From Chrysophaeum taylorii (taxonomy: Eukaryota; Sar; Pelagophyceae; Pelagomonadales; Pelagomonadaceae), in NCBI GenBank assembly GCA_029834535.1, contig JAQMWT010000540.1, forward strand, positions 1 through 24,856: a stretch of DNA of 24,856 bases, written 5' to 3'. Both the position numbers and the translations under genes were made by a program. The notes below the pieces were generated by a model. The model was not told where the DNA came from. It ran no database searches and was given only the letters and a program-made list of their open reading frames with translations. Positions 4,119-24,856 of this stretch are shown here, in pieces (position 1 is the first letter of the stretch; each line of letters begins with the position of its first letter).

Positions 4119-4124
4119 AACAAA

Positions 4125-6177: not shown

Positions 6178-6948
6178 CTTCGGACCTCTCCCGGGCATGG
6201 GAGCCAGGCTGGGCCGGCAGTAGCCGGTCCAGGATCACAGAGCAAAAATCACACAGTTGGGGTAGAGGCGAGAGATGAAAGTGCGTGGATGGCGGACCGC
6301 CACTGCGCGCGGTCTTGTGCGAGGTCGTGCCACGAGTTGAAGGTGATGTCGCATTTCCGGAGTGCCTTGGCGAGCGACCTCCCGTACGTCATCTGCGGAG
6401 CCCCCGGTGGGCGCTTGGAGCGGACCCAAGACGAGAGCATCTTGCGAGGGAGTCGGGAGAAGGGCATGCGGGCGACGTGACCGGCCCAGCGGAGCTGGCG
6501 GCGCGTGACGTAGACGTCGATGGACTCGAGGCCGAGGCGCCGCCGCAGGATCTCCGTTGAGATGTGGTGGGACCAGGTGTGTTTCCGGGTCACACGACAC
6601 ATGACGCGGGCGCACTGCGCGTGGAAACACCGCAGCCGGCGGAACAGGACCTCGGTGAGGCACCACGATTCCGCACCGTGAAGGAGGATGGCCAGGACGA
6701 GTGAGACATAGACGAGGCGCTTGGCGCGAGCAGAGACGGACTTCGAGGCGAAGATGCAGTCCCGCAAGGCACCGAAGGCCTGAGACGCCTTCTTGATCCG
6801 CGCGTCGACGTCTGAGTCGTCGCGGCAGTCGCGCGAGAGGACCGAGCCGAGGTACTTAAACTGGTCGACGACCGGTATGAAGCGGCCGCGCCCGAGCTCG
6901 ATGTCCGAGAGGTTCGTGTCGTCGAACGACTTTGGGTCGCCGTACAGC
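6171..6948 (-). mobile_element. Non-LTR retrotransposon (LINE) 3' fragment L1
   Basis: A 5'-truncated LINE on the minus strand. The coding 3' half of the protein is followed by a short 3' UTR with the hairpin-capable CTCCCATGCCCGGGAG and a GTTA-repeat tail (seen as CTAACTAAC on the plus strand). It is cut at its 5' side where Helitron copy D begins. The last ~60 bp match the ends of L2, L3 and L4, so all four belong to related families using the same 3' recognition sequence. Confidence 0.85.
6249..6947 (-). pseudogene. LINE reverse transcriptase protein, C-terminal part
   Basis: Open frame of about 232 residues without a start. It contains the block downstream of the RT catalytic core in RTE/CR1-like LINE proteins: FKYLGSVLSRDC, DVDARIKKASQAFGALR, then LLHGAESWCLT, LRCFHAQCARVM, RRQLRWAGHVARM, a GAPQMTYGRSLAKALRKC block and an AQDRAQWR end. 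This region follows the thumb and includes the conserved LRW.GHV..RM motif. The catalytic (F/Y)xDD region would lie further 5' and is absent, so this copy is dead on arrival. The frame is intact over the whole fragment, suggesting fairly recent insertion. Confidence 0.85.
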
Positions 6949-8377: not shown

Positions 8378-8648
8378 CTAACTAACTAACTTCAGACCTC
8401 TCCCGAGCATGGGAGCCAGGCCGGACCGACAGGAGCCAGTCCGGAATCACGGGCCTGTAGACGAGGAGCGCCGAAAAAAAAGGTCGGTCGGCGGAGAGTG
8501 ACCATCAATCTTGTCGCCATGCGACGAGGAGACCGCGATGTGACTGACAACCAACTCGTCGATAACTTTCCGTCTTCGCCCCCCGGCCATACCCCGTCCC
8601 ACTGCGAACGTTCCGGCTGCCAACCGGCCCGCCCGGGAGGCGAATAGG
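8377..8648 (-). mobile_element. LINE 3' end L2
   Basis: A 5'-truncated, non-coding LINE 3' region. The plus-strand CTAACTAACTAACTTCAG is the tail; then come the shared 3' hairpin, GCCAGTCCGGAATCACGGG, and about 200 bp ending in GGAGGCGAATAGGTGC. It is nearly identical to L3 and L4. It sits directly on the truncated right end of Helitron copy D. No target-site duplication is evident. Confidence 0.75.
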
Positions 8649-9745
8649 TGCGAGGATATATAAAATACATATTCACGAAGCGCCGGCTTCCCGGCTTGGG
8701 GCCGTTGAAGAAGGTGGCGCGGCGCTGATTCGAACCGTCACCGTAGGAAACGAAGATCCAGCCCCTGTAGCAGCCCGCGACCGTCCTCGGATACCGCCTC
8801 GATGGTGATCCAGTAGCAACCGGGACAACTCCCCCGAGAGAACCGAACCTCGACGCTTGACCCAAAACCAAAGAACCGGTGCCGATTCTCGGGTCCTTGA
8901 CCCGGGGGGTACCAGCGAACGACGAGGCTCTCGATGTTCGCCTCGAGGAGGACGTTCTACAGAGTCGCTCGGGAGCTGCTGCGTCCGGGTCCAACCTTCC
9001 GAAGAGAGCACGCTCGTCGACGACGACAGCTTTGACTTTCATGGCCTCCAGGGCTTTCACCTGGCGCTCAGAAGAGGGCCTTCTCGACGACGGACGCGGC
9101 GATGGTGCTCCATTATCGCCGCCTCCCGGTCCGCGTGGTTCTGCCGACTACGACAAACCGCCTTTGTCAATCCTCGTACGTCGTCGCTGAGCGCGGCGAG
9201 GCGTCCTCCATCAACTCGTCCTTCGACCTGGCGCTCGAGCGCAAAGGCGCGGTCAAAGTCCCGTTCTTACGAGAGAGACGACGGTCATCTTGAACAAGGC
9301 CGGTCTCTGGATCATTGGCGTCGGTCGGTCCGAACGGCCCGCGATCGCGGATCGTCGACGGACAGCTTCGCCGATCCAGACCTCGAGGAACAGGGGTGGC
9401 GAAGGACCAGTCGCGGACTATAGATTCCGAAGGATGCGCTCGAGGACCGTCGCAACGATTCTGACGAATTTGACGAACGAAAGACCTGGAGCAATCTCTG
9501 ACTCGGGTCGCCGAACAGGCTGGCGATCGCCTTGGCCTCGCCGGCCGCGCTCTGGTCGGAGACTCCGTCTCGTCGCCGCCGCGTTCGACGACGCGATGAA
9601 TCTTTGCCGTCGAGCGAGCGAGCACCATAACCCAGAGGTCGTTCGATCGAAACGAACACCAGCTACCATGTGACAACTGGAATGGGGCGTTACTAAGAGA
9701 ATGACGTAGGGATACTACTGGATACGTGGTGCAGGGGTAAGTGTC
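8649..9745. other. GC-rich segment, no confident gene
   Basis: Open frames exist on both strands because of high GC, but none has recognisable motifs over its length. On the minus strand around 9060-9260 a charged, helix-prone stretch (ERDFDRAFALERQVEGR, then RLAALSDDVRGL) looks like part of a coiled-coil protein; it is bounded by stops. A TATA-like GGATATATAAAATAC lies near 8652. It may be a decayed host gene. Confidence 0.3.
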
Positions 9746-9751
9746 ATAGCT

Positions 9752-9856
9752 TCCTCACACAGGTGCTGGAAAAGAAAGAAAAGGAAAAAGGGGGAAGTGA
9801 GGTCCTCACACAGGTGCTGGAAAAGAAAGAAAAGGAGAAAAAAGGGGTAAGTGAGA
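9752..9856. repeat. 51-bp purine-rich tandem repeat (2 units)
   Basis: Two units begin with TCCTCACACAGGTGCTGG (9752 and 9803, period 51) and continue as AAAAGAAAGAAAAGG followed by a G run and AAGTGAG. Each unit has strongly asymmetric purine content. No gene is visible in it. Confidence 0.75.
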
Positions 9857-9879
9857 CGCTCACACCTACGTCGTCGCCG

Positions 9880-10540
9880 TAGCCCAGCGCGAGGGCGATC
9901 TCGCCAAGGACGCCCATCTCGGAGCGCAGGTCGCGAACGGAGCGGTAGGACAGGATTTCCATCGCTCGCCCGCTCCGGCGACCGAGGCCAGGACCTCGGG
10001 AATTTGCGCAACCCTCGAGGCGAGCAGCTTCATAATCAGCTTCGACGTGCGACCAGGGGTGACGTCCTGCTGGGCGCGGCTGCCCGAGGCTGAAGAGAGG
10101 GCACACCGCGCCCGGCCCAATGTGTTGGCGATCCCCCACTCGCGGTGGCGAACTTGGAGGAGAGCCTACGCCTTGAAATTTTTGGCCAAGACGCCGGTTT
10201 TTGGGGAGTTCGTAGCACGGCGCGCTGGGGGCGTCACCGAAGGCACCAAAGGCACGACGAGGCCAGAAACGGCGCCGCAGCTACCTAGCCGCTGCAGCTC
10301 GACGACCTGAGGGCTTGATGGTGGCAACGCGGTCGAGGTATTCGTCGTGGACTCGCGCGCCAATCAACAGATATTCCAAGGGCGGTACAGAACAAGCCCC
10401 AGGCGAGCATATCAAAGTCAGTTTTGAGAGCGCAGCGAGAAGTGTCGCGCGCGACGCTACGTCGGGCGAGGTTGCCTTGAAATCTGGACAGCAGGAGCGA
10501 CGACGAAGAATCCGGCGTTACGCGGCGGCCGAGCGAATCG
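9880..10540 (-). pseudogene. Diverged E2-type nuclease-like C-terminus, inverted
   Basis: Minus-strand fragments align in order with the E2 protein but in changing frames: GNLARRSVARD (E2 has GNLARRQVVPD; 10459-10490), DMLAWGLFCTA (E2 DIKTLAWGSLYTA), a VHDEYLDRVA stretch, FGAFGDAPSA (E2 FGAFGEASAA), then GIANTLGRARCAL (E2 GIANALGRARCAL; about 10099-10140) and QQDVTPGRTS. The putative PD and DxK residues are not kept. This is an older, independently decayed relative on the opposite strand from all other E2 copies. Its final part diverges completely from E2. Confidence 0.6.
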
Positions 10541-11040
10541 CCGTGCCGGGTTAGTCCGCGCGCGAGGCGGATCTGACAGCGGGCGTAGTCGAAAACGGCG
10601 CAGGAGGGCCGCAGCGGCTGGGGTCGTTGCGGGTCGGCGCCGCCGAGTGCCGCGGCGACAAAGTTGAGGACGGCGCAAGCGCGCTCGAGGCAACAGTAGT
10701 AGTCAATTCCAACGGAGCGATCGCGGGCCAACGAGTAGTAGATACACAACGAGGCCTTCGGCGCCGCCGTTCCTGCGCAGCAGCACGGTGATCGAGGAGA
10801 CCCGTGCGCCGGACAGAACGCCACGCGCGCATCGAGGCCGAGCTCCTCTCGGGATATCGCGAGCATACTGCAGAAGTGTGAGATGACGCCGTGCGAGGCG
10901 TCGCGCGTCGCCAAGCAACAATACGGTGGCGGGTTTACGAGTTGCATCGCCTCGCTGAGAGACGGTGGGGACGAGAGCCGGTCGGGCTTGGCACCCACGT
11001 ATAAGGTTGCTTGACCACGAAGCAGGAAAAGGCTCGCAGC
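10541..11040 (-). CDS. Unrecognised Cys-rich ORF segment, weak BRO1-like look
   Basis: Open minus-strand frame that continues into the E2-like remnant at its C-terminal end. The unique part includes LSEAMQLVNPPPYCC, DASHGVISHFCSMLAISREELGLD and YYCCLERACAVLNFVAAALGG. The last two faintly recall the helical BRO1 domain (an Ala/Leu-rich helix with E.A.VLFN, preceded by a Y...L..L segment). That domain is found in ESCRT-associated proteins. This is a guess from pattern, not an identification. Upstream patches in other frames (GVDLLDMVDALSALLRLG near 11090; GRRFCRVLGDFRSDEAS near 11270) suggest a larger frameshifted gene. Confidence 0.3.
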
Positions 11041-11404
11041 TGAGTACGGACAAGTTTGTCCACGACGGTCCGAGGCGCAGCAGCGCGCTTAGCGCGTCAA
11101 CCATATCGAGGAGGTCAACGCCCAGCGGCGGAAGCCGCGAAGCGGTCCGAAGGTTGAACGAGCGTCGTCATCATCGGAAGTGGCTTCTTCGTGCCACGAA
11201 AAAGACGCGTCGGCCGTAAGGCGATAGATAGGTGAAGGAGACGCCTCGTCGGAGCGGAAATCGCCGAGGACACGACAAAAGCGACGGCCCGCGACCGCGA
11301 GGGTGTCGCGTCATCGTCGACTGTGGCTAAAAAAAGGGAATGCGCGTAGAGGAGGAGTGTCTGGCGAGGATACGCGAGCGAAGTACCTGAGATTATTAAA
11401 ATCA
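11041..11404 (-). other. Coding-like patches in shifting frames below the AAA+ gene
   Basis: An open stretch on the minus strand at 11089-11310 reads RDTLAVAGRRFCRVLGDFRS and continues with an acidic EEATSDDDDARS segment to RGFRRW; another frame holds DLLDMVDALSALLRL. The composition looks coding, but stops and frame changes break it. It could be the decayed 5' part of the ORF at 10541-11040, or exons separated by short introns; I cannot decide from one genome. Confidence 0.3.
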
Positions 11405-12379
11405 TCATGGAGGCGGCGGCACACGAAAGCTAAGCCTCGTGCCGAGCCTACCCGGCCTCAGGAGGGCTTCGTCGAGGGCTCCGAGGCGCGGTACGGCCGC
11501 GACGACAACAAAGTCGCCGTCGCACATTTCCACCAACAGAGTTCCGACAGCGCGGTCCAAGGAACCCTCGACCGTCGTGTCGTTGCCTCGCGGCGCCCCG
11601 ATCACCTCGAGATTGTCCATCAGAACCACGCAGCGCGTCTGCCTCGCCGTCCGAAACGCGGCCGCGATCGCTTTCTCGGTCGCTCCTAATTTCGGTCTCA
11701 ACAGCTCAAAAACGTTCAGCTCCAAAACCTCCAAGCCCGCCGCGTGCGCTTCGCGCGCCACCCATCTCAGAGCCAGCGTCTTGCCACTGCCCGTAGGGCC
11801 GTAGCAGACGCAGTGCTCGCCGCGGACGACGACCGCTTCACGAAGCGCGTAAAGCGTTTCTGGATTGCCTACTCTACCGACCTCCGGAAAATCCCGGAGC
11901 CAGGTGCCCTCCAATGCTGTCCGCACGGGGACGCGGCCCGCCGCCAGACATTCGCACTCGGCGAGCGTATAGCCGCGCGACGCGCTCAGGAGATTTGGCG
12001 GAAGAATCGCCGATCTCGCGGTTTCGTCGAGGGCAGAAATTTCCAACCGCAACCCAAACCGCGACGACAACCGCACATCTTCGCGCGACAAAACGAGCGT
12101 GAAAGCGCGCGTCCGGTCGACCTCCCGTAGCCAGATCGCGCGCTCGCGGCCGTTTAATAACTCCACATCAACAATCACGAGAGGCGACCTGTATTTGAGG
12201 GACTGCGTTGACAGCCACTGCGTCGGCCACGCGAGCTCCGCTGACAACCAAACCCCGAGCCGCGTCTTCCCAGTCCCCGCGCGCCCGACGATAACAGCTC
12301 CCTTCACAACCCCCGCCCGCGCGGCCCGCAACACCAGCTCCCCAATCGCTTCGAGGCGTGGCGGCGGTGGAGAGACCAT
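11405..12379 (-). CDS. Tandem AAA+ ATPase (CDC48/AFG2/PEX1-like), compact D1, short D2
   Basis: Single uninterrupted ORF of 324 codons from the ATG at 12379. There are two P-loops: GRAGTGKT at residues 32-39 and GPTGSGKT at 194-201. D2 shows the type II AAA pattern: pore-region FELLRPKLGATEKAI (224-238), Walker B VVLMDN (251-256), a sensor-1-like VVVAAVPRL, and the arginine-finger region DEALLRPGRLGTRLSF (303-318). In AAA proteins these couple ATP hydrolysis to protein remodelling or unfolding. Oddities: the Walker B glutamate is Asn256, D1 is shrunk with VIVDVELL in the Walker B place, and the protein ends right after the SRH without the D2 helical lid. It may be a divergent or decaying SPATA5/PEX1-type paralogue. 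The family is confident; the exact orthologue is not. Confidence 0.75.
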   Translation of the reverse strand: MVSPPPPRLEAIGELVLRAARAGVVKGAVIVGRAGTGKTRLGVWLSAELAWPTQWLSTQSLKYRSPLVIVDVELLNGRERAIWLREVDRTRAFTLVLSREDVRLSSRFGLRLEISALDETARSAILPPNLLSASRGYTLAECECLAAGRVPVRTALEGTWLRDFPEVGRVGNPETLYALREAVVVRGEHCVCYGPTGSGKTLALRWVAREAHAAGLEVLELNVFELLRPKLGATEKAIAAAFRTARQTRCVVLMDNLEVIGAPRGNDTTVEGSLDRAVGTLLVEMCDGDFVVVAAVPRLGALDEALLRPGRLGTRLSFRVPPPP

Positions 12380-13140
12380 AATTATTATGCTTACCCTAAT
12401 GTATTATGCTTCTGAATTTCGGGCTATCCGGTGTCCGTCCGTTGTTATCTCTCATGCTTACCAATGATGGCCAAGGTCGTCTTGCGACTCTCGATTCTCG
12501 ACTCTCGACTCTCGATGCGATGCGATGCGATGCCGCCGTGGAGTTTTTTTCTTCTTCTTCTTTTTCCGGTTTTGAGCAACCAGGGCTTGGGGCGACGACC
12601 AAAGCCGTCATCTTCTTCGCGAGTAGAAGGAAGACCAGCTCTCAAGCTTTTACGATCTGCAGGCAGTTTGATCCGAGCACGTCGTCGTGTGGCGACATGC
12701 TCATATGCTGCTGCACGTTCTCATGATATCATTGCTGCAAATTGTTGAGCATCGGAGACGAGCCAGCTCCCAAACAGACTCCGCGGGCGTCTGCATCCGC
12801 TGGCTATCCGCCCCCCCCTTGGATCCGCGTCGGGATGTCGCAGATTCGTACTCGCGATCTTCTTCGGTCTTGCGTATGACTCCCCTGATCGTCGAGGGAC
12901 GCTCGATTGCGCTCGACAGATGATCCGTCTCCGCTCTTCTTTCTTGGCTTGGAGACATATTAGAGCGAATACAAAAAAAAAATTATTTTCGTCACGAAAA
13001 TCAAACCGCTTTCGCGACATTGCGCGATGCTAGCCGTCCGTTGCCAACGGATATTTCACAGATGATGAGAACGCTTCAGATCAGAACCTGCGGACGGACG
13101 GACGGACGGACGGACGGCTGTCTGTGGAAGAACCTGACTT
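12380..13140. other. Non-coding stretch with simple repeats
   Basis: No convincing gene. Simple repeats include (TCGACTC)n-like sequence at 12486-12514, (GATGC)n at 12514-12532 and (CGGA)n at 13091-13117. The AAA+ gene starts at its low-coordinate edge, so any promoter of that gene would lie in the first few hundred bases; no clear element was recognised. Confidence 0.5.
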
Positions 13141-13147
13141 TAACTCA

Positions 13148-13200
13148 GACAATCCTTCATGCTCACCACACACACCCCCCTCTTAGCAGTCGACATTTAA
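13148..13200 (+). mobile_element. Short E2 3' end split by LINE L3
   Basis: ATCCTTCATGCTCACCACAC through CTCTTAGCAGTCGACATTTAA is the E2 3' UTR. It is interrupted after GCAGTCGACATTTAA (13186-13200) by LINE L3; the same 15 bases recur at 13564-13578 and the E2 tail AGACAGACAA resumes there. Confidence 0.75.
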
Positions 13201-13563
13201 CTAACTAACTAACTTCAGACCTCTCCCGAGCATGGGAGCCAGGCCGGAACGACAGGTGCCAGTCCGGAATCACGGGCCTGTAGACGAGGAGCGCCGAAAG
13301 GTCGGTCGGCGGAGAGTGACCATCAAGCTTGTCGCCATGCGACGAGGAGACCGCGATGTGACTGACAACCAACTCGTCGATAACCTTCCGTCTGCGCCCC
13401 CCGGCCATACCCCGTCCCACTGCGAACGTTCCGGCTGCCAACCGGCCCGCCCGGGAGGCGAATAGGTGCCAACCTACGCCGGGAGGGCGGATGCCCTCGC
13501 AAGGCTCAGGTGCCAACCTACGCCGGGAGGGCGGATGCCCTCGCAAGGCTCAGGATTCATGAG
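13201..13563 (-). mobile_element. LINE 3' end L3 with 15-bp target-site duplication
   Basis: Nearly identical to L2 and L4 over the shared region, then extends 5' (higher coordinates) into a 44-bp unit present twice (13464-13507, 13508-13551; AGGTGCCAACCTACGCC start). The perfect direct repeat GCAGTCGACATTTAA flanks it (13186-13200 and 13564-13578), the expected footprint of target-primed reverse transcription. The GTTA tail (seen as CTAACTAACTAAC) adjoins the left copy. Confidence 0.85.
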
Positions 13564-13578
13564 GCAGTCGACATTTAA

Positions 13579-14090
13579 AGACAGACAACCCGAAACATTC
13601 ACCTCGAAAAAAAAAGACAAAAAGGCCGGCGTCGTCTCCGCCGACAAGAGGGATACGCGCGGCGATGAGGCTGCGATTGCGGCGAAGATCGCTGAAGGCT
13701 GCGGCAACATCGCGAGCGAACGTCTTGCGGTCGCGACTGTCGCGTCTCGACGCGACAGTTCGCGTTCTATTTTTTTTACCGCGGCGCACTCCTATTACCT
13801 CCGCGTCCATCATTATGTTTTTCCCTCTCAACGCAATCCTGCAATGCGATGGGATGGACGCTGGCCGTCAGGCAACCACAGGCACCAGGCGACCGTCTTT
13901 GACGCGGCGATCCTCGCAGCGTTGCGCGCGTCAAGAAACCCTCGAAAATCTCGGACCTTTAAAAATCCCGCGAAATTTCGGCGAAAATCGAAAATGAATC
14001 TGCTGACATAGTATCGTTGATGTCTACAGAATCGTCGCGCAACAAATAATCGGGCAGTACATGAAAAAAAAAAAAAAGTCTTCACCATCC
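13579..14090. other. Unassigned segment
   Basis: ORFs of 90-180 codons occur on both strands but show no recognisable domain. The plus-strand reading RDTRGDEAAIAAKIAEG and the minus-strand FDFRRNFAGFLKVRDFRGF are the most coding-like patches. A 14-base poly-A tract lies near 14062. No gene called. Confidence 0.3.
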
Positions 14091-14094
14091 ACAA

Positions 14095-14312
14095 TCCACA
14101 ATAATTAATTGGGAATGTCAGTCACGCCAGATCAACGGAACTCTACTTTCTGTTCGAAGCCCTATGTATGCTCGAAACGGGCCGACAAAATCTGCGTTTT
14201 CTAACTTTCTGTTCGAACGAGCATGTATGCTCATTTTGTAAAACCCACCTAATACTTTCTGTTCGAAGCCCTATGTATGCTCGAAACGGCCCGACAAAAT
14301 CTGCGTTTTGTA
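14095..14312. repeat. ACTTTCTGTTCGAA repeat cluster with palindromes
   Basis: Three units start at about 14145, 14203 and 14254, each beginning ACTTTCTGTTCGAA and continuing through an ATGTATGCTC segment; units 1 and 3 also carry CGAAACGG and CTGCGTTTT. The middle unit has GAGCATGTATGCTC (14219-14232), inverted arms of six bases around GT. The cluster starts in AATAATTAATTGGGA. The same sequence recurs at 16460-16640 in a different arrangement, so this is a dispersed repeat, possibly a small non-autonomous element. Confidence 0.65.
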
Positions 14313-14405
14313 AAGTCAAAACTTTGTAAAGTCAAATCAAAACTTTGCTATTTGCTACACAAACCCTCGGCCGATCTTTTTGAAGGTTGAAGGTCGACGA
14401 CGGCG

Positions 14406-14771
14406 ATGGAGCCTTCGCCCGCCAAACGGGACGACGCGCTCGAGCCAGGGACGCGAGCCTCGACGCCGGCATGGCATGCCGGCTGGCTCCCTCTTATCTT
14501 TCGGGGTTCTTTCGGGGTTCTGGCGCGCGCAAAAATGCGACGCGATTTCGCCTTTTTTGCGCGCGAACTCTTCGGTACGCGCGCGATGCGTGCCGCCGTC
14601 TTCGTCGCCGCGGAGACCGGCCACCGAAATCGACAACGGCTTGCCGCGCTCGCGTCTGCGGTCAAAGCCCGCTTCCACGGCTACGACTCGCTCTTCCGAC
14701 GGGCCGTCCTCGAGAACGCGCGCGACCGAACGAGACGCGACCGTCGACTCGGTGGATCGACAACCGTTTAA
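14406..14771 (+). CDS. Hypothetical Arg/Ala-rich ORF
   Basis: ORF of 121 codons. Its second half is helix-prone and coding-like: MRRDFAFFARELFGTRAM, AVFVAAETGHRNRQRLAALA and FHGYDSLFRRAVLENARD. The DNA is strongly GC-rich and the overlapping frames are also open, so ORF length alone is weak support. The MRAAVFVAA start segment (14586) recurs in the tandem repeats downstream. No domain recognised. Confidence 0.3.
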   Translation: MEPSPAKRDDALEPGTRASTPAWHAGWLPLIFRGSFGVLARAKMRRDFAFFARELFGTRAMRAAVFVAAETGHRNRQRLAALASAVKARFHGYDSLFRRAVLENARDRTRRDRRLGGSTTV

Positions 14772-14772
14772 C

Positions 14773-15165
14773 CTTCGTTACGATGCGTGCCGGCGGCTTC
14801 GTCGCCGCGAGCGGCCACCGCCGTCGCGACCGCGGACTCGGACTCGCCCGCGGGTTGACGTCCAGTCGACCAACCCGAAAATAAACTCCGCGGCTCGCTC
14901 GACGGGCGGCGCACCGCGCCGCCGGGCAGCGCTTCGATACGATGCGTGTCGGCGTCTTCGTCGCCGCCGTCGCGACCGCGGGTTGACGTCCAGTCGACCA
15001 ACCCAAAATAAAAACTCGACGGCGCGTCGAGCTCGACGCGTGCGCCAGCGCTTCGATACGATGCGTGCCGGCGTCTTCGTCGCCGCTGCGAGCGGCCACC
15101 GCCGTCCCGACCGCGGCCTCGGACTCTCCCCCGCGGGCGACAACGGCTCGCCGTAAAGTCGCGGC
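14773..15165. repeat. GC-rich tandem repeat, three variable units
   Basis: Units begin with CTTCG(A/T)TACGATGCGTG at 14773, 14932 and 15051. Each has GGCGTCTTCGTCGCCGC near its start, and two carry TTGACGTCCAGTCGACCAACCC. Spacing is 159 and 119 bp, so the units differ by internal deletion. A related GATGCGTGCCG start lies at 14585. On the plus strand each unit can be read as M-R-(A/V)-G-(G/V)-F-V-A-A, which suggests duplication of a coding segment. Confidence 0.6.
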
Positions 15166-15941
15166 CGGCGTCGACGAAGGCCGCGACGACGTCGCCGGCG
15201 CGACGAGTCTTCGAGCTCGACGCGTCTGCTACCGCGATTTCGGCTTGGTCGACGGTGGTCGCGCGACGTCCTGGGACTCGCCGCCTCCGCTTTGCCTTCT
15301 ACGACAGACGCCCCGTCGTCGCCGCGACCGGTGCGCCTACGCGCCGACGAGCCGCCCGCGCGCGTCCACGACGACCGCCCGTGGCCGCGGTCTGGCCATC
15401 GCCGAGGGAACGGAGCCCGCATCCACCGCCACGCCTCGCTCTTCGCGCGGGTCGTCCTCGACCCGAACCCCGCTCGACCGTCGACCGCGACGGGACGTCC
15501 GCTATCTACGTCTAGACCATCGGCCACCGTCGGCCACACGGATAAATCTCCGTCGTGCTCCTTCGAAACCCACGCCCTGTCAACTCCAACGGTGCGCGCT
15601 CCATTCTCCACCGCCTCATCCCTGTCTACCTCCTCCAACTCGCACCATGGATTTGAATAAAAGACTACTACACCCTTTATTCCCAAGGCCGAAAACTCCC
15701 CAATGGGGAGTCCGCCTCCTCCACCCCGAGCCTGTTGTCTCCTCCCACAGGATCCCACGGTAAAGAAAGAGAATAAAACGGGCGTGTGGTCGGCGGCCAC
15801 GTCCACCGCGTCGCGGCACGCAAAGCCGAAAATAACACACGCATAAGCCTTACCGCAGAAGCCACACGCTCTACCATAAACCCTTATAACGGATCTCAAC
15901 ATGTTCAAGAACCGAAAATGACCAAAAAAAACCGTTGCCAC
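15166..15941 (-). other. GC-rich region open on both strands, no confident gene
   Basis: The minus strand is open from 15941 across the tandem repeats (387 codons), and plus-strand frames of 86-232 codons overlap it. The N-terminal part of the minus reading (MATVFFGHFRFLNMLRS, FCGKAYACVIFGFACRD) is not GC-driven and might be real. The rest is Arg/Pro/Ala-rich low complexity. No family recognised. Confidence 0.25.
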
Positions 15942-15984
15942 GGCGTGCGACGGCGTTTTTGGTCGGCACCCGCGTCCGTGCGCG

Positions 15985-16103
15985 GCAGCAGAGGCCCGGG
16001 GGGCCTTGGGGGCGTGGGGGGTCCGGGGGTGTCCCCCGGCGGGGGGTTTGGGGGGCAGAGCCCCCCAATTCTCGGGGGGTTCGGGGGGCTTGCCCCCCGA
16101 GAA
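15985..16103. repeat. G-run block with nested palindromes
   Basis: Many runs of four to seven G, with self-complementary pieces: GGGGGGCAGAGCCCCCC, GGGGGTGTCCCCC, and TCGGGGGGCTTGCCCCCCGA. These can form hairpins or G-quadruplexes. The block ends exactly where LINE L4's tail begins. No coding potential seen. Confidence 0.7.
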
Positions 16104-16105
16104 AA

Positions 16106-16400
16106 ACTAACTAACTAACTAACTTCAGACCTCTCCCGAGCATGGGAGCCAGGCCGGAACGACAGGTGCCAGTCCGGAATCACGGGCCTGTAGACGAGGA
16201 GCGCCGAAAAAAAAGGTCGGTCGGCGGAGAGTGACCATCAAGCTTGTCGCCATGCGACGAGGAGACCGCGATGTGACTGACAACCAACTCGTCGATAACC
16301 TTCCGTCTTCGCCCCCCGGCCATACCCGGTCCCACTGCGAACGTTCCGGCTGCCAACCGGCCCGCCCGGGAGGCGAATAGGTGCCAACCTACGCCGGGAA
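16106..16400 (-). mobile_element. LINE 3' end L4
   Basis: Starts with the CTAACTAACTAACTAAC tail and shares the L2/L3 sequence up to GGCGAATAGGTGCC, then 20 bp more (AACCTACGCCGGGA). Non-coding. It is followed by two copies of AAAAAAACCCGACTTGG (about 16404 and 16440). No clear target-site duplication is visible. Confidence 0.75.
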
Positions 16401-16459
16401 AAAGGCCGAAAAAAACCCGACTTGGCCTTACTAGTCCACAAAAAAACCCGACTTGGCAC

Positions 16460-16640
16460 ACAATAATTAATTGGGAGATGTCAGTCCGTCAGTCACGACA
16501 CATGAACGGAACTCTACTTTCTGTTCTTTTGAGCATGTATGCTCGAAACGGGCCGACAAAATCTGCGTTTTGTGAAGCCGATTTATTTCAAAACGCTTCA
16601 CCTCCAGCCTACTTTCTGTTCTTTGCTAAATGTATGAGCC
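16460..16640. repeat. Second copy of the ACTTTCTGTTC repeat
   Basis: Begins ACAATAATTAATTGGGAGATG and contains ACTTTCTGTTC at 16515 and 16611, GAGCATGTATGCTC at 16531-16544 and ACAAAATCTGCGTTTTG. It matches the cluster at 14095-14312 with insertions and deletions. Confidence 0.6.
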
Positions 16641-16676
16641 AAACGTTACCGAACCTAAAAAGCCGGTCTTTAAAGG

Positions 16677-17696
16677 AAGTGCAGGCCAGTAAGTTCACCT
16701 AGTCCCAATCTCTAACCCCAGTAAGTTCACCTAATCCTAGTAAGTTTCATATAAGTTCAGCTGGTCAGTAAGTTCACCTAGTCCAAATCTCTAACCCCAG
16801 TAAGTTCACCTGGTCCAGTAAGTTTCATATAAGTTCACCTGGTCAGTAAGTTCACCTAGCTCACACCCACTCCTTCGAGCTCGTCGCTCTCGCCTCCGCC
16901 AATCTAAGGCGCTTTGATCCGCACACGCCGCTAACCTTTGAGTTTACTCTAAAACCCCCAGTAAGTTCACCTGGTCCCAGTAAGTTCACCTTGTCACTCA
17001 ATTCACCTAGTCCCAATCTCAAACCCCAGTAAGTTCACGTGGTCCCAGTAAGTTCACCTATAGTGCGCGTGTAGACGCCGGGAGGGGGCTTATCGGTATT
17101 GCGCAGCACGTGTGGGGTAGGATGGAGTCGTCGACCCAGATGAGTATATCCTCGGGGATGCCGATCGACAGAGAGCCACGTAGAGCTGGACGTGACAGAA
17201 GACGGGCTTGGTAAAGAGGACGCCGACCTCGCGGGGCGTCTGGCCCTGGCTCTTGTTGATCGTTTGGCGTAGGTGGGCCTTAAGGGATACAGGTTGGAGG
17301 AGCCTCGGTGACAACGACACGATCGATCATGTATCTGGTACTGTTGCAGTGGCCGTGCGACGGGTCGAGGTTGCGAAGACTTTAAGCTCGCGATCAAAGC
17401 CAGCATGCCGCTGGTTGTCAGCGAGTTGAAAACTCTACTGTAAAGAGCGAGGCGTCGTCTTCCGACCTAACCTAGTCGGCCGAAAAGAACTCCGACGCCT
17501 CGTCTCCGGGAAAAAAAGGCCGCGGTCATGCGCGCGTTGTCAGCATCGACAACATCGTTTCGACGGGGCGTGAGAATGGCGCGCTGAAAGAGCCGCCGCG
17601 GGTCGTGGAAATAGTCTGAGAGGTCGCCGTAGACGGCTTGGAGGATCAATGGCTGGCTCGCGGGCCTACCTAATCCTTACCCTAAATCGAGGGACA
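16677..17696 (-). mobile_element. Helitron-helicase-derived repeat, copy E
   Basis: Full copy of the ~1 kb repeat, with the TTTCATATAAG minisatellite variant shared only with copy C. Its left flank (ACCGAACCTAAAAAGCCGG, about 16648-16676) also matches the flank of copy C, which there is the upstream edge of the coiled-coil ORF. Helicase remnants: KSQGQTPREVGVLFTKPVF and VQLYVALCR. The right end TAAATCGAGGGACAAAC runs into E2 3' ends. Confidence 0.75.
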
Positions 17697-18194: not shown

Positions 18195-18436
18195 CTGCGC
18201 ATTAGGCCGGGCTCGCTGTGCCCTCACCGCCCTCACCCATGTCGCCGCCTCGGGGAACCCCACCCAGGCCGCCCGATCCCAGCAGGACGTCACCCTTCGT
18301 CGCACATACGTCCGGCGGCAGCATGCGTACGACCTACGGGCGGGGCCCGTCCTCTCTTCGCCTGCCCCACGACTCGGCGATGACCCCGACTAGGTCCCGC
18401 GTACTTATGTCCGCCCGTCAGGCACATCCCTCCTAC
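18195..18436 (+). mobile_element. E2 3' end interrupted by LTRs
   Basis: Truncated at GCATTAGGCCGG, it continues through the E2 C-terminal frame to CACATCCCTCCTAC. There an LTR begins instead of the expected CCCACAAACCC. CTAC is found both before this LTR and after it (18768), a 4-bp target-site duplication. Confidence 0.7.
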
Positions 18437-18767
18437 TGCAGTGGTTTTCTCAGACACCCGCCCCTCCTGGCCGGACCGGGGGCCTCAACAACCCTTTCTC
18501 CCTACCCGAACCGCGAGTGAAACCACCACACGCCCGATCTCAGCGTAATACCTCACGCCATCACGAAATTGGACAATCAAAGGAGGGTAATATCAAGAAG
18601 ACAGCAAGAAAGCAATACAAATGCCCGGTACATTAGGTCCAGTGGAAGCGCAGGTGAAGGTGTCGAGATGACACCCCCCCCGTGAATGCAAGGTCAATAC
18701 CAGGGCAACGACCAGGGTAAGTCAAGTGGCAGGCAGGCAAGTGGGGGAAATGGGCGTTACTGCCACA
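18437..18767 (-). mobile_element. LTR 1 (apparent solo LTR of the gypsy family)
   Basis: 331 bp starting TGCAGTGG and ending GCCACA on the plus strand, bounded by CTAC on both sides. It is homologous over its full length to LTR 2. It has the TG...CA ends of LTRs. Together with its own duplication this suggests a solo LTR from an older insertion into the E2 copy. Confidence 0.8.
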
Positions 18768-18777
18768 CTACCCCTGT

Positions 18778-19028
18778 CAGGGTCGGATAAGAAAGTTCGT
18801 ACGAGCCGTTAACTATGTTTCAGTTTGTACTAAGACATACTCAACGGAGCTATGTTCATTTGTACTCAAGCAGTATGTGCCGCCACGCCGCGAGATCGTC
18901 GCGATGGAACTAGTCCCCATAGTGAAGTCGGCATCCTTTCGTCCCCTCACGCAAAAAAAGGAAAAAGCCCACGCGTTGTAGGACCCGTCGTTGCGGCGCG
19001 GGCTAGTCTCGTTTTCTTATCCGACCCT
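18778..19028. mobile_element. hAT-like MITE inside LTR 2
   Basis: 251 bp with terminal inverted repeats CAGGGTCGGATAAGAAA and, at the other end, TTTTCTTATCCGACCCT. It is flanked by a perfect 8-bp direct repeat ACCCCTGT (18770-18777 and 19029-19036). The 8-bp duplication and the (C)AGGG start fit the hAT superfamily. No ORF. The 7277-7533 copy is its reverse complement. Confidence 0.85.
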
Positions 19029-19036
19029 ACCCCTGT

Positions 19037-19362
19037 AGTGGTTTTCTCAGATACCCGCCCCTCCTGGCCGGACCGGGGGCCTCAACAACCCTTTCTCCCT
19101 ACCCGAACCACGGGTGAAACCACCACACGCCCGATCTCAGCGTAATACCTCACGCCATCACGAAATCGAACAATCAAAAGAGGGTAATATCAAGAAGACA
19201 GCAAGAAAGCAATACAAATGCCCGGTACATTGGGTCCAGTGGGAGCGCAGGTGAAGGTGTCAAGATGACACCCCCCCATAAATGCAAGGTCAATACCAGG
19301 GCAACAATCAGGGTAAGTCAGGTGGCAGGCAGGCAAGTGGGGGAATGGGCGTTACTGCCACA
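19037..19362 (-). mobile_element. LTR 2 (3' LTR of the retrotransposon), main part
   Basis: Together with the three bases TGT at 18775-18777 it makes a 329-bp LTR, TGTAGTGG...GCCACA. It is joined directly to the PPT-like sequence of the minus-strand element, which defines it as the 3' LTR. By eye it differs from LTR 1 at about fifteen sites, all transitions, plus two single-base homopolymer indels. Confidence 0.85.
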
Positions 19363-19397
19363 GGAGCCCCCTACTTGAGATGAAGTCGTCCTCGACT

Positions 19398-20592
19398 TCA
19401 AGGGTGACGAAGGTCACGCTCACGAATGGTACGATAAGCTCGTTCAGCTACATCAGCAGGAACTTTGTTGCTGTGGAGACCGAAGTTAGTGACGAGGACA
19501 TCGATTTCATCCGGGCGAAAATCAGTCACACAGGGTTCACAGCCCTCCATGTTGGGTCGTAGGCATGTGAAGCTACCTCCGTCAGGATCTTTGTCTTCTG
19601 GTCTTAAGCGTCGTTCTTCAGCAGAAGCGGTCGCAGAACAAACGTCAGTCTCCTCTAGTTTCCATGGTGCGGTTTCTCTCGGATATCAACGGCTATCTCG
19701 AACACCAAAACTTCTCGTCGAGCAGCAAAATTTGCCGGCTACTGTTCGACTCGCGCGGTTGACCGGTGCGACGGACTTACACGGCACAAGCCTTTTGCCT
19801 CGCCAGAGACTATGGTTGGTCTCAGAGACTATGGTTGGTCTCTCCGGCCTTCTTTCTGCCTCTTTTCGGAGACTGTGGGTGGTCTCCTGGGCTCGCTTTT
19901 TGTCTTGAGACGCACAAAAATCCGCTCGACGTCCGAGTAGTAATCCGTCAGCTTGTTCTTTCGCTATCTCATCGAGAGTGATCTCATCCTCCGCTTGATC
20001 CGCAAAAGGGAGACGTTCGACGGAGTCAACTGGCTCAGACTCGTACGAGAATTGAGGCGGTTGTACGTTCTGTCGCGTACTAACTGCTACCATAGCTGCG
20101 GTGGGTCCGCTGTCCGTCAGCATAGGCATCGTCACCGAAGAGAAGGTGAAGCAAGCGGTGCCAGGGACATCGGTGGGGATTTCTTGGAAAATCAAAAAAG
20201 CTTCATTGATCGGTTCCCCGTCTTCATCTTTCTCGATCAATTTGTCGATAGGGTTGCGCGACAGACAATCCGGAATACGCATGCCAGGGGAGCTTCCAGG
20301 TTTGTATCCGAGCTCCCGGTCGAACGCAGCAAGCCGCATAGCCCATCGTGCTAACTGTCCAGACGTATGATTCGAATCCCGCAGAAACGTTAAATTACGA
20401 TGATCCGTCTCTAACTTCGTCTGATGACCTTCGATATAAAATCGGAAATTTTCGAGAGCAGAGAGTACTGCGAGGAGTTCCAAGCGCCGAGGATCATACT
20501 TCCTCATCGACTTAGGCACGGTTCGACTCCAGTACTCGATAACTCTCTCTTCGATTCTTTCTCTTCCATCGTCGTCAACGACTGGTACTTTT
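19398..20592 (-). pseudogene. Retrotransposon Pol, RNase H C-terminal half and tail (frameshifted, one in-frame stop)
   Basis: Continues the Pol ORF after a one-base shift in the A run (T run at 20589-20592 on plus). RNase H hallmarks: VIEYWSRTVPKSMRKYDPRR, ELLAVLSALENFRFYIEGH, LETDHRNLTFL and the closing YKPGSSPGMRIPDCLSRNP. An acidic linker and ITLDEIAKEQAD follow, as in other gypsy elements ahead of integrase. A duplicated AGACTATGGTTGGTCTC lies at about 19806-19840. A TGA at 19686-19688 is followed in the same frame by ~95 further codons (WKLEETDVC, CLRPNMEGCEPCV, VADVAERAY-like end) to the stop at 19398-19400. No integrase is recognisable. Confidence 0.7.
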
Positions 20593-23500
20593 GAAATAGG
20601 TAAGCACCCAACCCATGCGCGGAAGCATCAGTTCGAATGTAAAAAGGCAACGAGTAATCAGGATGGTAGACGCCCTTCGACGTGACAATAGCCTCGATGA
20701 TGGCATCCCAAGCTTCCTGACACTCTTTCGTCCACTTGAATTTCACGTCCGGCAACGTCAGTTGTCTTAATGGCTCTGCAACTTTCGCAAAATTCCTTAC
20801 ATAACGCCGGCAAAAGCTCCCCATTCCAAGGAAAGATCGCACTTGCTTCTTAGGGTCAGCATCCGACAAAGTGCCAGGAATTGGCATGTGTCTGATGGCT
20901 TCTAAAGATCTTGGTGATGGAAGAAGTCCGTTCGGGGTAGATAAATGACCCAAAAACTCAATGACTTCTTGCATAAAATGAATCTTCTTGATCTTGGCGC
21001 TGTACCCCTTCAAGGCGAGATGGGGAATAACTTGCACAAGGCACTGCAAGTGATTCTTTGTATCTGCGTGACCGGCGAGAATATCGTCGATATATGCCAC
21101 GAGATCACGATATAGCCATTGCGACAAGTCAGTGTTCAACTGCTTGCAAAACAAACTTCCGGCTGGTTTGACTCCCAAAGGTAGACGCATGTAGCTGTAC
21201 GCTCCCAGAGGACTAGTGAAGGTGACCACATCTTGTGCATCCAGCGACAATCGTAAATTGTGATAGCCCCAACGAATATCCAAACTGGAACGACAAAACT
21301 TGTCAATGAGAAACATCAACGCGTCAGCCATGCTCACACTCGGCCAGCTATCATCCTTGAGCAATGCATTGAGGCGCCGTAGGTCGACAGCTGCTCTGTA
21401 AGCATTGGAAGTGCCAGGCTCAGCACCTTTCTTAGGCAACATCAAAATAGGGAAACCCCATGGAGAATTCGCGGGACGAATAACTCCGTCTCGGGTCCAT
21501 GCTTCAATCTGCATCCGCAAACATTCAATCTTTTCTTTCGACAACCGATATGGCGAGAGTTTGACGGGAGTCGGGTTCTCTTCTTTGAACCGGAGCGTCA
21601 CTTCAGGTGAATCAACAGGTCTCATCACATCATCGAAAAATGCCCACGAATACGAGATTAAATGCTTCATCATCAGCTTCTCGTCATCATCTAAGGCAGG
21701 ATGCTCTGTAATACCCAATTCAGTCATCACCTCTTCGACCTGCGCGACGGTCGGAGGGATGACCTGCATGCTCTCCTGATCCGCTAAATGAGGAGGCATC
21801 ACCGGTGAAGGTTGACCATGTTCGTCGTGAGGCGCGTCCGCCCACGGAACGTCGTACGTATTGAAATACGCTGGTCGCTCTTTCGCGGTGCCTTCTTCTT
21901 CAGCAGTTGCGGAGGGCTGGTTATCAACTTGGTTGCTCTGCATAACAGCAGTGGCGACGGTGCCCCCTGCAAAAGATGAAGCCGTCCCAGGCGATGTAAC
22001 TGAAGGCGGTGGCGGGGTGGTGGTGGCAGCAGCGGATGGTGCAGGACTCGCAGGAGAATAGAGTTCATCGGGCGCAATCCATGATACACTTCGAGTGGCA
22101 GGGTCGAGCGTTGGAATGCGCGACTCTACAACAAAAGGTGAAAACCGTAGAATATGGTGATCAGGTTGGGCTAGCGTAGTCGTCGCAATATTCCGCAACT
22201 TACCCAAATTTCGAAGTGAAGGTTCAAACGAATTGTGCACTGCTAGCGCAATCCGCGTCATAGTCGCGGGTGGCACCATACTGCCAAGCATCTTCATAGC
22301 TACTGTCTCGGAAACTGTCGCACCCCATTGCCACGTAGCAGGAACGGTCATAATTTCCTGGTGCATCTGCAACGTGAGTGGACGGGTGTTCGAGAAATGA
22401 GGTCCTAAGCGGAGCTTATTGCGCGTCACCGTGAAGGCAGGGCCGATAGCCGGGCGCGTAGATGAGAAACTGTTCACTATAATGAGCGGGTGACCACCTG
22501 TAAATCCCAACGCTGGGCCAAAACGGTCCCGTAAATTCGGTGGTACACGCGATAATAACGGCAGTTCCAAGCGAACATTGCAAGCAAGTAGGCGCGTGCG
22601 CGAGCACAGCAGCTCTGGCGTGATACTATAGAAATCAACAATACGCGGCACATAAAATTGGTGATGCACAAAAGGGATCACTGATGGTTCCTGCTCGAGT
22701 GTCCATCGTCCAATCACATAAGGTGCGTTGCGGAAATGACGCAGGACCCAAGAAGTAATAGTAGCGCCCTTGCGTGCGTCCCTGTAGTGCAAATTGGCAG
22801 TCGATCCATAGATACACGGCGGACTGGCGTGAAAATAAGAGTGCTTCCAAAAATCTGAGTGTAAATACGACAACACCAAGTCGTATGTACGACGATGAGA
22901 TTTCCCCAACTCATGCAAAACATAGGGAATCTTCGGAAAATTGAGTTCAAAGGTGGCTCGGGCTTGAGGACAAGCATCCAAAGCCAGGACAATGCGAAAT
23001 GAACTGCCATATAGCTCATTGCATCGCCGGATACCCAACGTTGATCCTCCAGCGCCAGCAAAATAGACGACGACAAAAGTGTAGGTGATGGGTATCCAAA
23101 CCAAGGAAGCGTGCTTAGATAGCAGCTCCTTAACAGTCGCCCCCATCTCCATTTCTGGTGTTTTTTTCACCTCTTCATCTGGAGGTGGCTGAGGAGGAGG
23201 TCTGTCACTCAAGACATCCTCCTCGACTTCGTCGTCGTCAACAGCAGCCGCAAGAGTGGCATGACACACGTCATCAGTGGCTTCTAGCTGCATGTTGACA
23301 CATCCTTCATGCGGTATGATCTCGCCTTCGGCCACCGGGACTTCGGGGTCGATACCAATGGGTTCGTCACCAATGTGCTCCACAGCCACATGAACTTCGT
23401 TGGGCTCATCGGCACAATACGATGAATAGGAACCAGGTACAAGGCGGAGATCTTTGAGGAGTGACCGATAAGGTCGGAATACGTGACTCTTTTCCAGCGG

Positions 23501-23923
23501 CACATCGCACTCCATCTCCAAGAAGTACGGTTGGTTTGGAAGAAGAAATCGAGTACTCGTCACGTACGCGAAATGAGGGATGATATCTTCCTCGTCTGCA
23601 GGGCATTCAAGTTGGTTTTCAGCTTTTCCAGCAGTCTGATCACCGGAAGGAATGTGATGGCGATTCGCTCTGATACGAATAGAACGCAATAGACTGTCAT
23701 AACTCCACGGTTTACCAACTGGCGTCCAAGTTTGGATATTTCCGTATTGCACAGCAAGCTCAGCTGTCGGGAACATTTGCACTACCTGCGGAGTCGCATC
23801 GAATGCATCATTGTAAAGGACAATTCCATGCTGGTCTTGTGGCGAGGCGGAAGTCCGATTCTTGAGAACTCCAATGGTCACTTCAGAACGCCGAAAAATA
23901 GCTCTCTCTGTCGCATAATCCAA
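20504..23923 (-). CDS. Retrotransposon Pol-like polyprotein: post-protease segment, C5-cytosine methyltransferase, RT, RNase H (N-terminal half)
   Basis: Uninterrupted frame of 1139 codons. The first codon used (23923) is TTG and the frame enters Helitron copy F, so the true start is lost. Residues 1-200 resemble the stretch after the retropepsin. Residues 283-565 form a C5 methyltransferase: motif I FAGAGGSTLG (288-297), motif IV ASPPC with the catalytic Cys370 (nt 22814-22816), motif VI WTLEQ with Glu410, motif VIII SRTRLLA (441-447), motif IX RPLTLQMHQE (514-523), motif X GATVSETVA (534-542). A Pro/Ala/Thr linker (about 620-660) leads to the RT (about 786-995): VDLRRLN, SLDIRWGYHNL, LPLGVKPAGSLF, YIDD at 944-947. 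RNase H begins with YIRTDASAHGLGAYLF (1095-1110). It would methylate DNA cytosines and reverse-transcribe the element; activity is not shown. Confidence 0.85.
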   Translation of the reverse strand: MDYATERAIFRRSEVTIGVLKNRTSASPQDQHGIVLYNDAFDATPQVVQMFPTAELAVQYGNIQTWTPVGKPWSYDSLLRSIRIRANRHHIPSGDQTAGKAENQLECPADEEDIIPHFAYVTSTRFLLPNQPYFLEMECDVPLEKSHVFRPYRSLLKDLRLVPGSYSSYCADEPNEVHVAVEHIGDEPIGIDPEVPVAEGEIIPHEGCVNMQLEATDDVCHATLAAAVDDDEVEEDVLSDRPPPQPPPDEEVKKTPEMEMGATVKELLSKHASLVWIPITYTFVVVYFAGAGGSTLGIRRCNELYGSSFRIVLALDACPQARATFELNFPKIPYVLHELGKSHRRTYDLVLSYLHSDFWKHSYFHASPPCIYGSTANLHYRDARKGATITSWVLRHFRNAPYVIGRWTLEQEPSVIPFVHHQFYVPRIVDFYSITPELLCSRTRLLACNVRLELPLLSRVPPNLRDRFGPALGFTGGHPLIIVNSFSSTRPAIGPAFTVTRNKLRLGPHFSNTRPLTLQMHQEIMTVPATWQWGATVSETVAMKMLGSMVPPATMTRIALAVHNSFEPSLRNLGKLRNIATTTLAQPDHHILRFSPFVVESRIPTLDPATRSVSWIAPDELYSPASPAPSAAATTTPPPPSVTSPGTASSFAGGTVATAVMQSNQVDNQPSATAEEEGTAKERPAYFNTYDVPWADAPHDEHGQPSPVMPPHLADQESMQVIPPTVAQVEEVMTELGITEHPALDDDEKLMMKHLISYSWAFFDDVMRPVDSPEVTLRFKEENPTPVKLSPYRLSKEKIECLRMQIEAWTRDGVIRPANSPWGFPILMLPKKGAEPGTSNAYRAAVDLRRLNALLKDDSWPSVSMADALMFLIDKFCRSSLDIRWGYHNLRLSLDAQDVVTFTSPLGAYSYMRLPLGVKPAGSLFCKQLNTDLSQWLYRDLVAYIDDILAGHADTKNHLQCLVQVIPHLALKGYSAKIKKIHFMQEVIEFLGHLSTPNGLLPSPRSLEAIRHMPIPGTLSDADPKKQVRSFLGMGSFCRRYVRNFAKVAEPLRQLTLPDVKFKWTKECQEAWDAIIEAIVTSKGVYHPDYSLPFYIRTDASAHGLGAYLFQKYQSLTTMEEKESKRELSSTGVEPCLSR
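22229..23077 (-). other. Cytosine-C5 DNA methyltransferase domain
   Basis: Residues 283-565 of the polyprotein. Motif order I-IV-VI-VIII-IX-X matches the C5 methyltransferase fold. The cofactor-binding FAGAGG, the nucleophile Cys in PPC, the Glu of motif VI and the RxR of motif VIII are all present. Motif VI reads LEQ where ENV is usual, and the region between motifs VIII and IX that would recognise the target is short (about 65 residues). The domain is flanked by acidic/Pro-rich linkers, the arrangement expected of an independently folding insert. Confidence 0.85.
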
Positions 23924-23925
23924 AA

Positions 23926-24856
23926 CAAGTGCAGGCCAGTAAGTTCACCTACTCCAAATCTCTAACCCTAGTGAGTTCACGTGGTCCCAGTAAGTTCACC
24001 TAGTCCCAATCTCTAACCCCAGTAAGTTTGGTGTAAGCCCACTCGTGCTCACACCCACTCACCCCACTCTCCTTCGAGCTCGTCGCTCTCACCTCCGCCA
24101 ATCTAAGCTGCTTTGATCCGTACACGCCGCTAGCCTTTGCGTTCACTCTAAAACCCCAGTAAGCTCACTTGGTCCCAGTAAGTTCACCTGGGCACTAAGT
24201 TCACCTAGTCCCAATCTCAAACCCCAGTAAGTTCACCTGGTCCCAGTAAGTTCACCTACAGTGCGCGTGTAGACGCCGGGAGGGGGCTTATCGGTATTGC
24301 GCAGCACGTGTGGGGTAGGGTGGAGTCGTCGACTCAGAAGAGGATATCCTCGGGGTTGCCGATCGACAGAGAGCCACGTAGAGCTGGAGGCAGAAGACGG
24401 GCTTGGGAAAGAGGACGCCGACCTCGCGGGGCGTCTGGCCCTGGCTCTTGTTGATCGTTTGGCGTAGGCGGGCCTTAAGCGATGCAGGTTGGAGGAGCCT
24501 CGGTGACAACGACACGATCGATCATGTATCTGGTACCGTTGCAGTGGCCGTGCGACGGGTCGAGGTTGCGAAGACATTAAGCTCGCGATCAAAGTCAGCA
24601 TGCCGTTGGTTGTCAGCGAGTTGAAAACTCTACTGTAAAGAGCGAGGCGTCGTCTTCCGACCCAGCCTAGTCAGCCGAAAAGAACTCCGACGCCTCGTCT
24701 CCGGGAAAAGGCCGCGGTCATGCGCGCGTTGTCAGCATCGACAACATCGTTTCGACAGGGCGTGAGAGTGGCGCTGAAAGAGCCGCCGCGGGTCGTGGAA
24801 ATAGTCTGCGAGGTCGCTGTAGACGGCTTGGAGGATCACTGTCTGGCTCTCGCGCC
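23926..24856 (-). mobile_element. Helitron-helicase-derived repeat, copy F (cut by window edge)
   Basis: Begins CAAGTGCAGGCC at the retrotransposon junction and runs to the window end inside the 23-bp CTCTCGCGCC unit typical of copies A and B. Helicase remnants on the minus strand: KSQGQTPREVGVLFPKPVF and QLYVALCR, with a 3-bp deletion in GAGCTGGAGGCAG. The same three-frame split as the other copies. Confidence 0.75.

Follow-up and report, generated by a model that had tools for sequence, protein, structure and literature searches.

A cytosine methyltransferase domain inside the Pol frame of a Ty3/gypsy retrotransposon family of Chrysophaeum taylorii, with element cDNA as its putative substrate

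Retrotransposons carrying a DNA cytosine methyltransferase (DNMT) have been described by de Mendoza et al. 2018. According to the passages of that paper used here (PMC5890265), KnitGypsy-Dnmt3 of Klebsormidium nitens is an LTR gypsy element, intronless, with the DNMT inside its Pol polyprotein; the enzyme belongs to the Dnmt3 group and is under purifying selection (Ka/Ks <0.2), and the repeats of the element are arranged as in DIRS. The same passages present SymbioDIRS-Dnmt3 and SymbioLINE-Dnmt as high-copy, DNMT-carrying retrotransposons of Symbiodinium. The SymbioDIRS enzymes methylated CG de novo when tested, and the authors argued for cDNA methylation by them. In addition, a passage of PMC12344493 that refers back to the 2018 paper names 'LTR Copia and DIRS' elements with DNMT3, and this published mention of DNMT3 in LTR elements lowers the novelty of the principle; the passages of PMC9998398 and PMC3145265 name no DNMT-carrying element of such kind. 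A gypsy element with a DNMT in Pol is already published, so that the principle is known. An earlier interpretation made from the letters of the locus (the sequence-only reading) had named retrotransposons of dinoflagellates and charophytes as showing the principle, and the precedent of KnitGypsy-Dnmt3 is closer than was noted there (PMC5890265). No published record was found of the gypsy-DNMT lineage of this genome, or of two LTR superfamilies each with a DNMT in one genome, in literature that covered few subscription papers and no preprints.

The locus lies in the window, by which we mean the whole stretch of 24,856 nucleotides analysed (contig C540 of a genome of 70.8 Mb in 697 contigs). Its features are the following.

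20504..23944, minus strand: open frame of the Pol fragment, 1146 aa from stop to stop, with a post-protease segment, the DNMT, a linker, reverse transcriptase (RT) and the first part of RNase H
23078..23925, minus strand: post-protease segment, by comparison with the C345 copy
22229..23077, minus strand: C5 cytosine methyltransferase (DNMT) domain (PF00145, 6e-8; 15-row alignment; Foldseek and VIA-align of a low-confidence model)
from 23062 down, minus strand: DNMT motif I, FAGAGG
22814-22816, minus strand: codon of the PPC cysteine
22268-22285, minus strand: motif X-like GSMVPP
21437..22228, minus strand: linker from DNMT to RT
20945..21436, minus strand: Ty3/gypsy-type reverse transcriptase with YIDD (RVT_1 4e-13, residues 830-993)
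20322..20734, minus strand: RNase H, in two frames (RT_RNaseH_2 1.9e-12 and RT_RNaseH 2.1e-14)
19943..20321, minus strand: remaining homologous internal sequence (blastn to the C345 copy); integrase is absent beyond 19943
19025..19369, minus strand: 3' LTR of the same family; the match to the C345 copy spans 19032-19444
18428..18774, minus strand: second LTR, 95% identical across the main 253-nt block

The copy in the window is an internal fragment of an LTR retrotransposon, truncated and with a broken frame. It lacks gag, protease and integrase and keeps only the 3' LTR, in front of which a purine-rich tract was read by eye, and the 5' cut coincides with the 5' end of the post-protease segment, at about residue 725 of the 1812-aa frame of the C345 copy. 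Between 19943 and 23925 it is 98% identical (blastn) to that copy (L039 3783-7759). The frame had been thought to run uninterrupted through RNase H; it is open through RT and breaks inside RNase H, the remainder of which lies in a second frame (19686-20627). The second LTR looks solo, with GTAG flanking both sides as read by eye.

Around the fragment, direct repeats of about 0.9-1 kb (16672-17666 and 23922-24856) are spaced by about 7.19-7.20 kb, are 92-97% identical in their larger blocks and start with a CAGTAAGTTCACCTGGTCC-like minisatellite. Elsewhere in the window, a 324-aa open frame at 11405-12379 (minus strand) with an AAA ATPase domain (PF00004, 9.3e-21) is probably a host gene. A 172-aa frame at 6249-6767 (minus strand) looks like a LINE ORF2 3' end when read by eye (RRQLRWAGHVARM) and gave no Pfam match at E<=0.01.

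The complete element can be read from other copies. In the C345 copy a single 1812-aa frame (L039) joins a gag-like part (PF03732 at E 0.039, below cut-off), a protease-like stretch, the DNMT and RT. The protease-like stretch ('LDGMADSPYI ... LLLGARELRLLG') appears by eye to be a variant retropepsin, and no Pfam protease matched the gypsy element frames at E<=0.1. The LTRs of this copy are a direct repeat (L039 219-502 and L055 633-913) 91% identical over 291 columns; the 3' end of its 5' repeat departs from the three other LTR copies compared, so that this end is unsure, and by arithmetic from the repeat positions the element is about 9.2 kb long. The frame of the C225 copy (82% identity over the DNMT) is 2129 aa long, and the frame of the C5 copy (reported as 3063 aa, of which 2672 aa were examined) contains DNMT, RT, RNase H, H2C2, rve and an integrase C-terminal domain; a long open frame in the C169 copy also shows the domains and their order. 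Two features of Ty3/gypsy elements were found: a gypsy-type RT, RNase H and DDE integrase ordered RT-RH-INT (in L073, RVT_1 1606-1770, RT_RNaseH 1865-1977, H2C2 2161-2219 and rve 2237-2330), and LTRs in one copy (C345). There is very little doubt about the anatomy, a Ty3/gypsy LTR retrotransposon with a C5 DNMT between protease and RT in Gag-Pol.

The fusion proposed by the sequence-only reading, a C5 methyltransferase within a gypsy Pol, is borne out. PF00145 and RVT_1 lie in one frame and the arrangement recurs across the genome; the HMM search returned PF00145 on the segment in two stretches (6e-8, 32.9 bits, cut-off 22), and sister elements carry DNMT and then RT. The DNMT segment matches at least 128 stretches of the genome, with 119 of 922 candidates scored, and each of the 30 loci examined (the 30 best of those 128, the window's own among them) has RT downstream of the DNMT on one strand. 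An assembly join or a chance motif match is ruled out by these 30 co-stranded loci, the number of stretches and the PF00145 score above the cut-off, and we give it practically no weight. Five of the 30 loci, again including the window's own, show neither stop nor frame change from DNMT to RT, and the other 25 have a stop or a frame break between the two domains or inside them. As RT follows in 30/30 loci and 25/30 are frame-broken, the gypsy-DNMT family is real and largely decayed.

All the methyltransferase motifs named earlier are present, as FAGAGGSTLG, SPPC, LEQE, RTR, RPLT..E..P and GSMVPP; their numbers (I, IV, VI, VIII, IX and X) are our assignment. We aligned 15 rows with open frames (8 from lineage A1, that of the window, 6 from A2 and 1 from A3), in which P97, E139, Q140, E141, R171 and R173 are invariant among lineages that are 37-50% identical, and P98 and C99 are kept in at least 90%. 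PPC is lost in two aligned copies (PSC in L038, PPR in L053), and apart from these the catalytic PC (IV), E (VI) and R (VIII) are retained in all three lineages. Motif VI of C5 methyltransferases is usually ENV and motif X usually GNS. In the gypsy DNMTs these are EQE and GSM/ASV/AAV, a departure from the usual form. The LEQ form, read earlier as a possible mark of a separate capture, is not peculiar to the window copy: E-Q-E is invariant in the 15 rows. PF00145 scores in A1 are 32.9 bits (window), 30.7 (L039) and 30.8 (L040), the A2 copy C5 falls to 18.6 bits, below the cut-off of 22, and A3 gives no PF00145 match. An AlphaFold model of the domain is weak (mean pLDDT 41.8). The domain looks able to methylate DNA.

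Three gypsy lineages carry the domain. Besides A1, A2 (C5) has at least 127 matching stretches (127 of 1018 candidates scored) and A3 (C169) at least 23 of 134 rows at >=85% identity, followed by A2 rows at <=50%. These figures are lower bounds on stretches and not copy numbers, since single copies are in part split into several rows and duplicate haplotypes may be present among the contigs. With one representative each, identity is 42% in the DNMT and 63% in RT between A1 and A2, 39% and 65% between A1 and A3, and 47% and 84% between A2 and A3; the A3 DNMT reaches 50% identity to A2 copies of another subfamily. Overall, the three lineages span 37-50% in the DNMT and 63-84% in RT. A tree of 18 DNMTs unites A1-A3 (100/100) and pairs A2 with A3 (98/94), in agreement with RT; its deep forks are open, long branches including the A clade are flagged, and it includes no Dnmt3 sequence. 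Since RT and DNMT agree on the A2 and A3 sister lineages, one old capture is the simplest account, and the DNMT was probably acquired once, before the three lineages split. Among gypsy relatives from other sources, P0005 (44% RT identity) shares the RT-proximal part of the linker and has no PF00145 match in the approximately 400 aa upstream of it, a single case, and P0003 (61% RT identity) begins downstream of the expected DNMT position. Upstream of the linker, residues ~290-365 of P0005 (GGVHVGGDLDL...HATTSYEGNRWSITFF) look by eye similar to 2OG-Fe(II) oxygenases and have no Pfam match at E<=1.

The decay of individual copies raises the question of whether the DNMT is a passenger, a captured piece of a gene with no present role. 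The 25 broken loci and the eroded Pfam score in A2 and A3 agree with this. The comparison of the window with C225 points the other way, with omega (Nei-Gojobori) of 0.059 for the DNMT, 0.025 for RT, 0.22 for the post-protease segment and 0.42 for the linker, at dS >1.5 for DNMT, RT and post-protease segment; dS is saturated in the widest comparisons. Out of 15 A2 DNMT pairs, 13 have omega <=0.101, and the other two have 0.25 and 0.55 (the latter at dS 0.018). Two very close A1b pairs show 0.63 and 0.87 (dS 0.009 and 0.019), and values of 0.55-0.87 in three close pairs (dS <=0.02) are expected of decaying copies. Hence the substitution patterns indicate strong purifying selection on the DNMT between subfamilies and decay of very recent copies. 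With omega at 0.05-0.10 in most between-subfamily comparisons and the catalytic residues conserved in three lineages, a passenger is very improbable. Purifying selection of this kind argues that the DNMT is used; it does not tell for what purpose.

The source of the domain was sought with a profile of the gypsy DNMTs. Against PDB it gave six matches at E<=1, namely 8yf3 (0.0072), 3g7u, three DNMT2 chains and one unrelated chain, and no DNMT3, DNMT1 or MET1 chain at that threshold. In a common search it scored P0001 at 34.1 and P0002 at 32.8 bits, both of which had been found with this same profile, the enzyme of Aphanizomenon phage CL131 at 26.8, Wphi at 15.3, the host DNMT2 at 8.8, other phage enzymes at <=4.4 and family B (see below) negatively, and no score was reported for the host DNMT5. 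CL131, P0001, P0002 and 8yf3 are prokaryote/phage-type C5 methyltransferases with the same motif style (FxGAGGSTLG, SPPC, VPP). Unlike the gypsy domain they are free-standing, and they share 29-33% identity over about a quarter of it; they are the best matches, though weak, and the position of the gypsy domain in the tree is not firm. Against proteins the profile found 2 weak matches (E 0.004 and 0.009) among 7999 scored, and the DNMT part of the Pol fragment had no relative at E<=1e-3 among 1744 candidates, all long proteins. A phage search gave one match at E 5e-3, and viral contigs gave none for the gypsy profile, the copia profile, P0002 or the host DNMT2. The RT-RNase H part has 320 protein relatives (lengths 0.55-1.75x the query protein), and PF00145 was found in 0 of the 120 among the matches listed.

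In the genome, PF00145 hit at least 57 places when the best 123 of 474 candidates were scored, 55 overlapping family B and 2 in host genes; A1 copies were not among the places listed. The two host genes are DNMT2-like (C634) and DNMT5-like (C621; L041:3468-8498, plus strand, with a DNMT and an SNF2 domain), and no DNMT1- or DNMT3-like host gene appeared among those 123 candidates. Opposite the DNMT2 of C634 a light-harvesting protein is encoded, which we take to be FCP-like and which points to an alga whose plastid is of the red type. Of these two host enzymes, neither was accepted as donor, since the C634 gene scores 8.8 bits with the gypsy profile and no score was reported for the C621 gene. 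The evidence leans towards a prokaryote- or phage-type source. The separate capture suggested by the sequence-only reading is favoured over descent from the published Dnmt3 captures, as the profile recovers no DNMT3 chain of PDB at E<=1 and does best on prokaryote/phage-type enzymes.

In the reading that we prefer, the DNMT would be packaged together with RT as a part of Pol and would methylate cytosines of the new double-stranded cDNA before or during integration. The new copy would then carry a methylation state of the element's choosing, and might resemble host DNA to surveillance or be shielded from cytosine-directed editing or cleavage. Methylation of cDNA is our best guess because the DNMT lies in Pol beside RT and is kept in elements that make cDNA, and we give about even odds to element cDNA as the main substrate. 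The whole explanation, a Pol-borne DNMT that was captured once, is kept by selection and methylates cDNA, has in our estimate a probability of about 0.6. Against it speak the unusual motifs VI and X, the Pfam results for A2 and A3, the weak AlphaFold model, the absence of clear CpG decay (see below), the high omega of the closest pairs, the saturated dS, the single A3 row and the two aligned copies that lack PPC.

Alternatively, the enzyme could act mainly on host chromatin, altering or copying the host pattern in trans, or silencing the element after integration and so lowering its cost to the host. The DNMT5-like gene suggests a methylome that is probably able to maintain marks, and host effects are discussed in passages of PMC5890265. 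The position in Pol next to RT favours cDNA instead, and the copies show no clear CpG decay. CpG observed/expected is 1.05-1.07 in A1 stretches, 1.31 in A2, 1.18 in A3 and 1.02-1.03 in family B, as against 1.24 in window 1-16600 and 1.26-1.45 at two loci of host genes, which makes the values of A1 and B mildly lower; their TG and CA are mildly raised. In 30 A1 DNMT segments, transitions occur in 52 of 214 columns with CpG in any copy and in 93 of 791 others, and transversions in 31/214 and 71/791, respectively, so that both kinds of change are commoner in CpG columns. Where C or G is the commonest base, C>T or G>A is seen at 32 of 183 CpG and 61 of 326 other sites. The footprint neither supports nor excludes CpG methylation of copies and holds no clear sign of decay. 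Action mainly on chromatin is, in our view, unlikely.

Less likely still, the domain would methylate or bind RNA, either that of the element or the tRNA primer, and not DNA. Foldseek places DNMT2, which is a tRNA enzyme, among the best matches to the weak model, and a tested SymbioLINE DNMT gave no DNA methylation in yeast, for which the passages of PMC5890265 suggest an RNA role. The profile scores run against it, with 8.8 bits for the host DNMT2 and 27-34 for three prokaryote/phage-type enzymes, two of them found with the profile.

Methylation of own cDNA may also bear on a second family of the same genome, family B, of which two elements were delimited.

L043:204-5807, minus strand: family B element with its own C5-MTase domain in Pol
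L042:3097-8001, plus strand: family B element with its own C5-MTase domain in Pol

The DNMT occupies residues 355-492 of L043 and RVT_2 residues 1686-1848, PF00145 marks the family at the 55 places given above, and rve lies at L042 1016-1110 (17.6 bits, below its cut-off). By RVT_2 and the order of integrase before RT, family B is assigned to the Ty1/copia type. Both families have a Pol of the LTR-retrotransposon type with a DNMT in it, and they differ in RVT_2, domain order and motifs, those of family B being LPCQ and ENV. No similarity was found between the two DNMTs with profiles that are both shallow. The family B DNMT matches 145 stretches of the genome; its omega is 0.10-0.21 when compared with L004, a more distant copy, and 0.12-0.83 in closer pairs. 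Downstream of it, residues ~556-740 of the L043 Pol have a conserved HxD...H pattern recalling by eye 2OG-Fe(II) oxygenases, with no Pfam match at E<=10. Tentatively, and with slightly less than even confidence, we propose two independent captures, an old one in gypsy (prokaryote/phage-type, not host Dnmt3) kept in three lineages and hundreds of copies, and a second in Ty1/copia. If so, host surveillance or editing that attacks unmethylated cDNA would make self-methylation pay for any element with free cDNA.

Cytosine methylation is usually a host weapon against transposons. DNMT-carrying elements turn this silencing mark round and may use it for themselves, and few such lineages are recorded in the literature covered. 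Within a compact genome of 71 Mb, a conserved DNMT is found in each of three gypsy lineages and in a separate copia family, which amounts to replicated evolution, in which one can ask whether the DNMT marks the element's own cDNA and which host pressure rewards the marking.

Among the described systems, as the passages of PMC5890265 present them, KnitGypsy-Dnmt3 is the nearest precedent. It has in common with the elements reported here the LTR gypsy type, a DNMT within the Pol frame, the lack of introns and purifying selection on the DNMT. In contrast to it, the domain reported here shows no affinity to DNMT3 by profile at E<=1, the terminal repeats are direct in the one copy examined (C345), and three deep lineages carry the domain. 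The DNMT of SymbioDIRS-Dnmt3 shares an ORF with RT, as here, but that element has a tyrosine recombinase, whereas ours has a DDE integrase (rve, H2C2) and a gypsy RT. SymbioLINE-Dnmt has a LINE endonuclease and its DNMT in a separate upstream ORF, while the element of this genome combines LTRs and an integrase with DNMT and RT in one frame.
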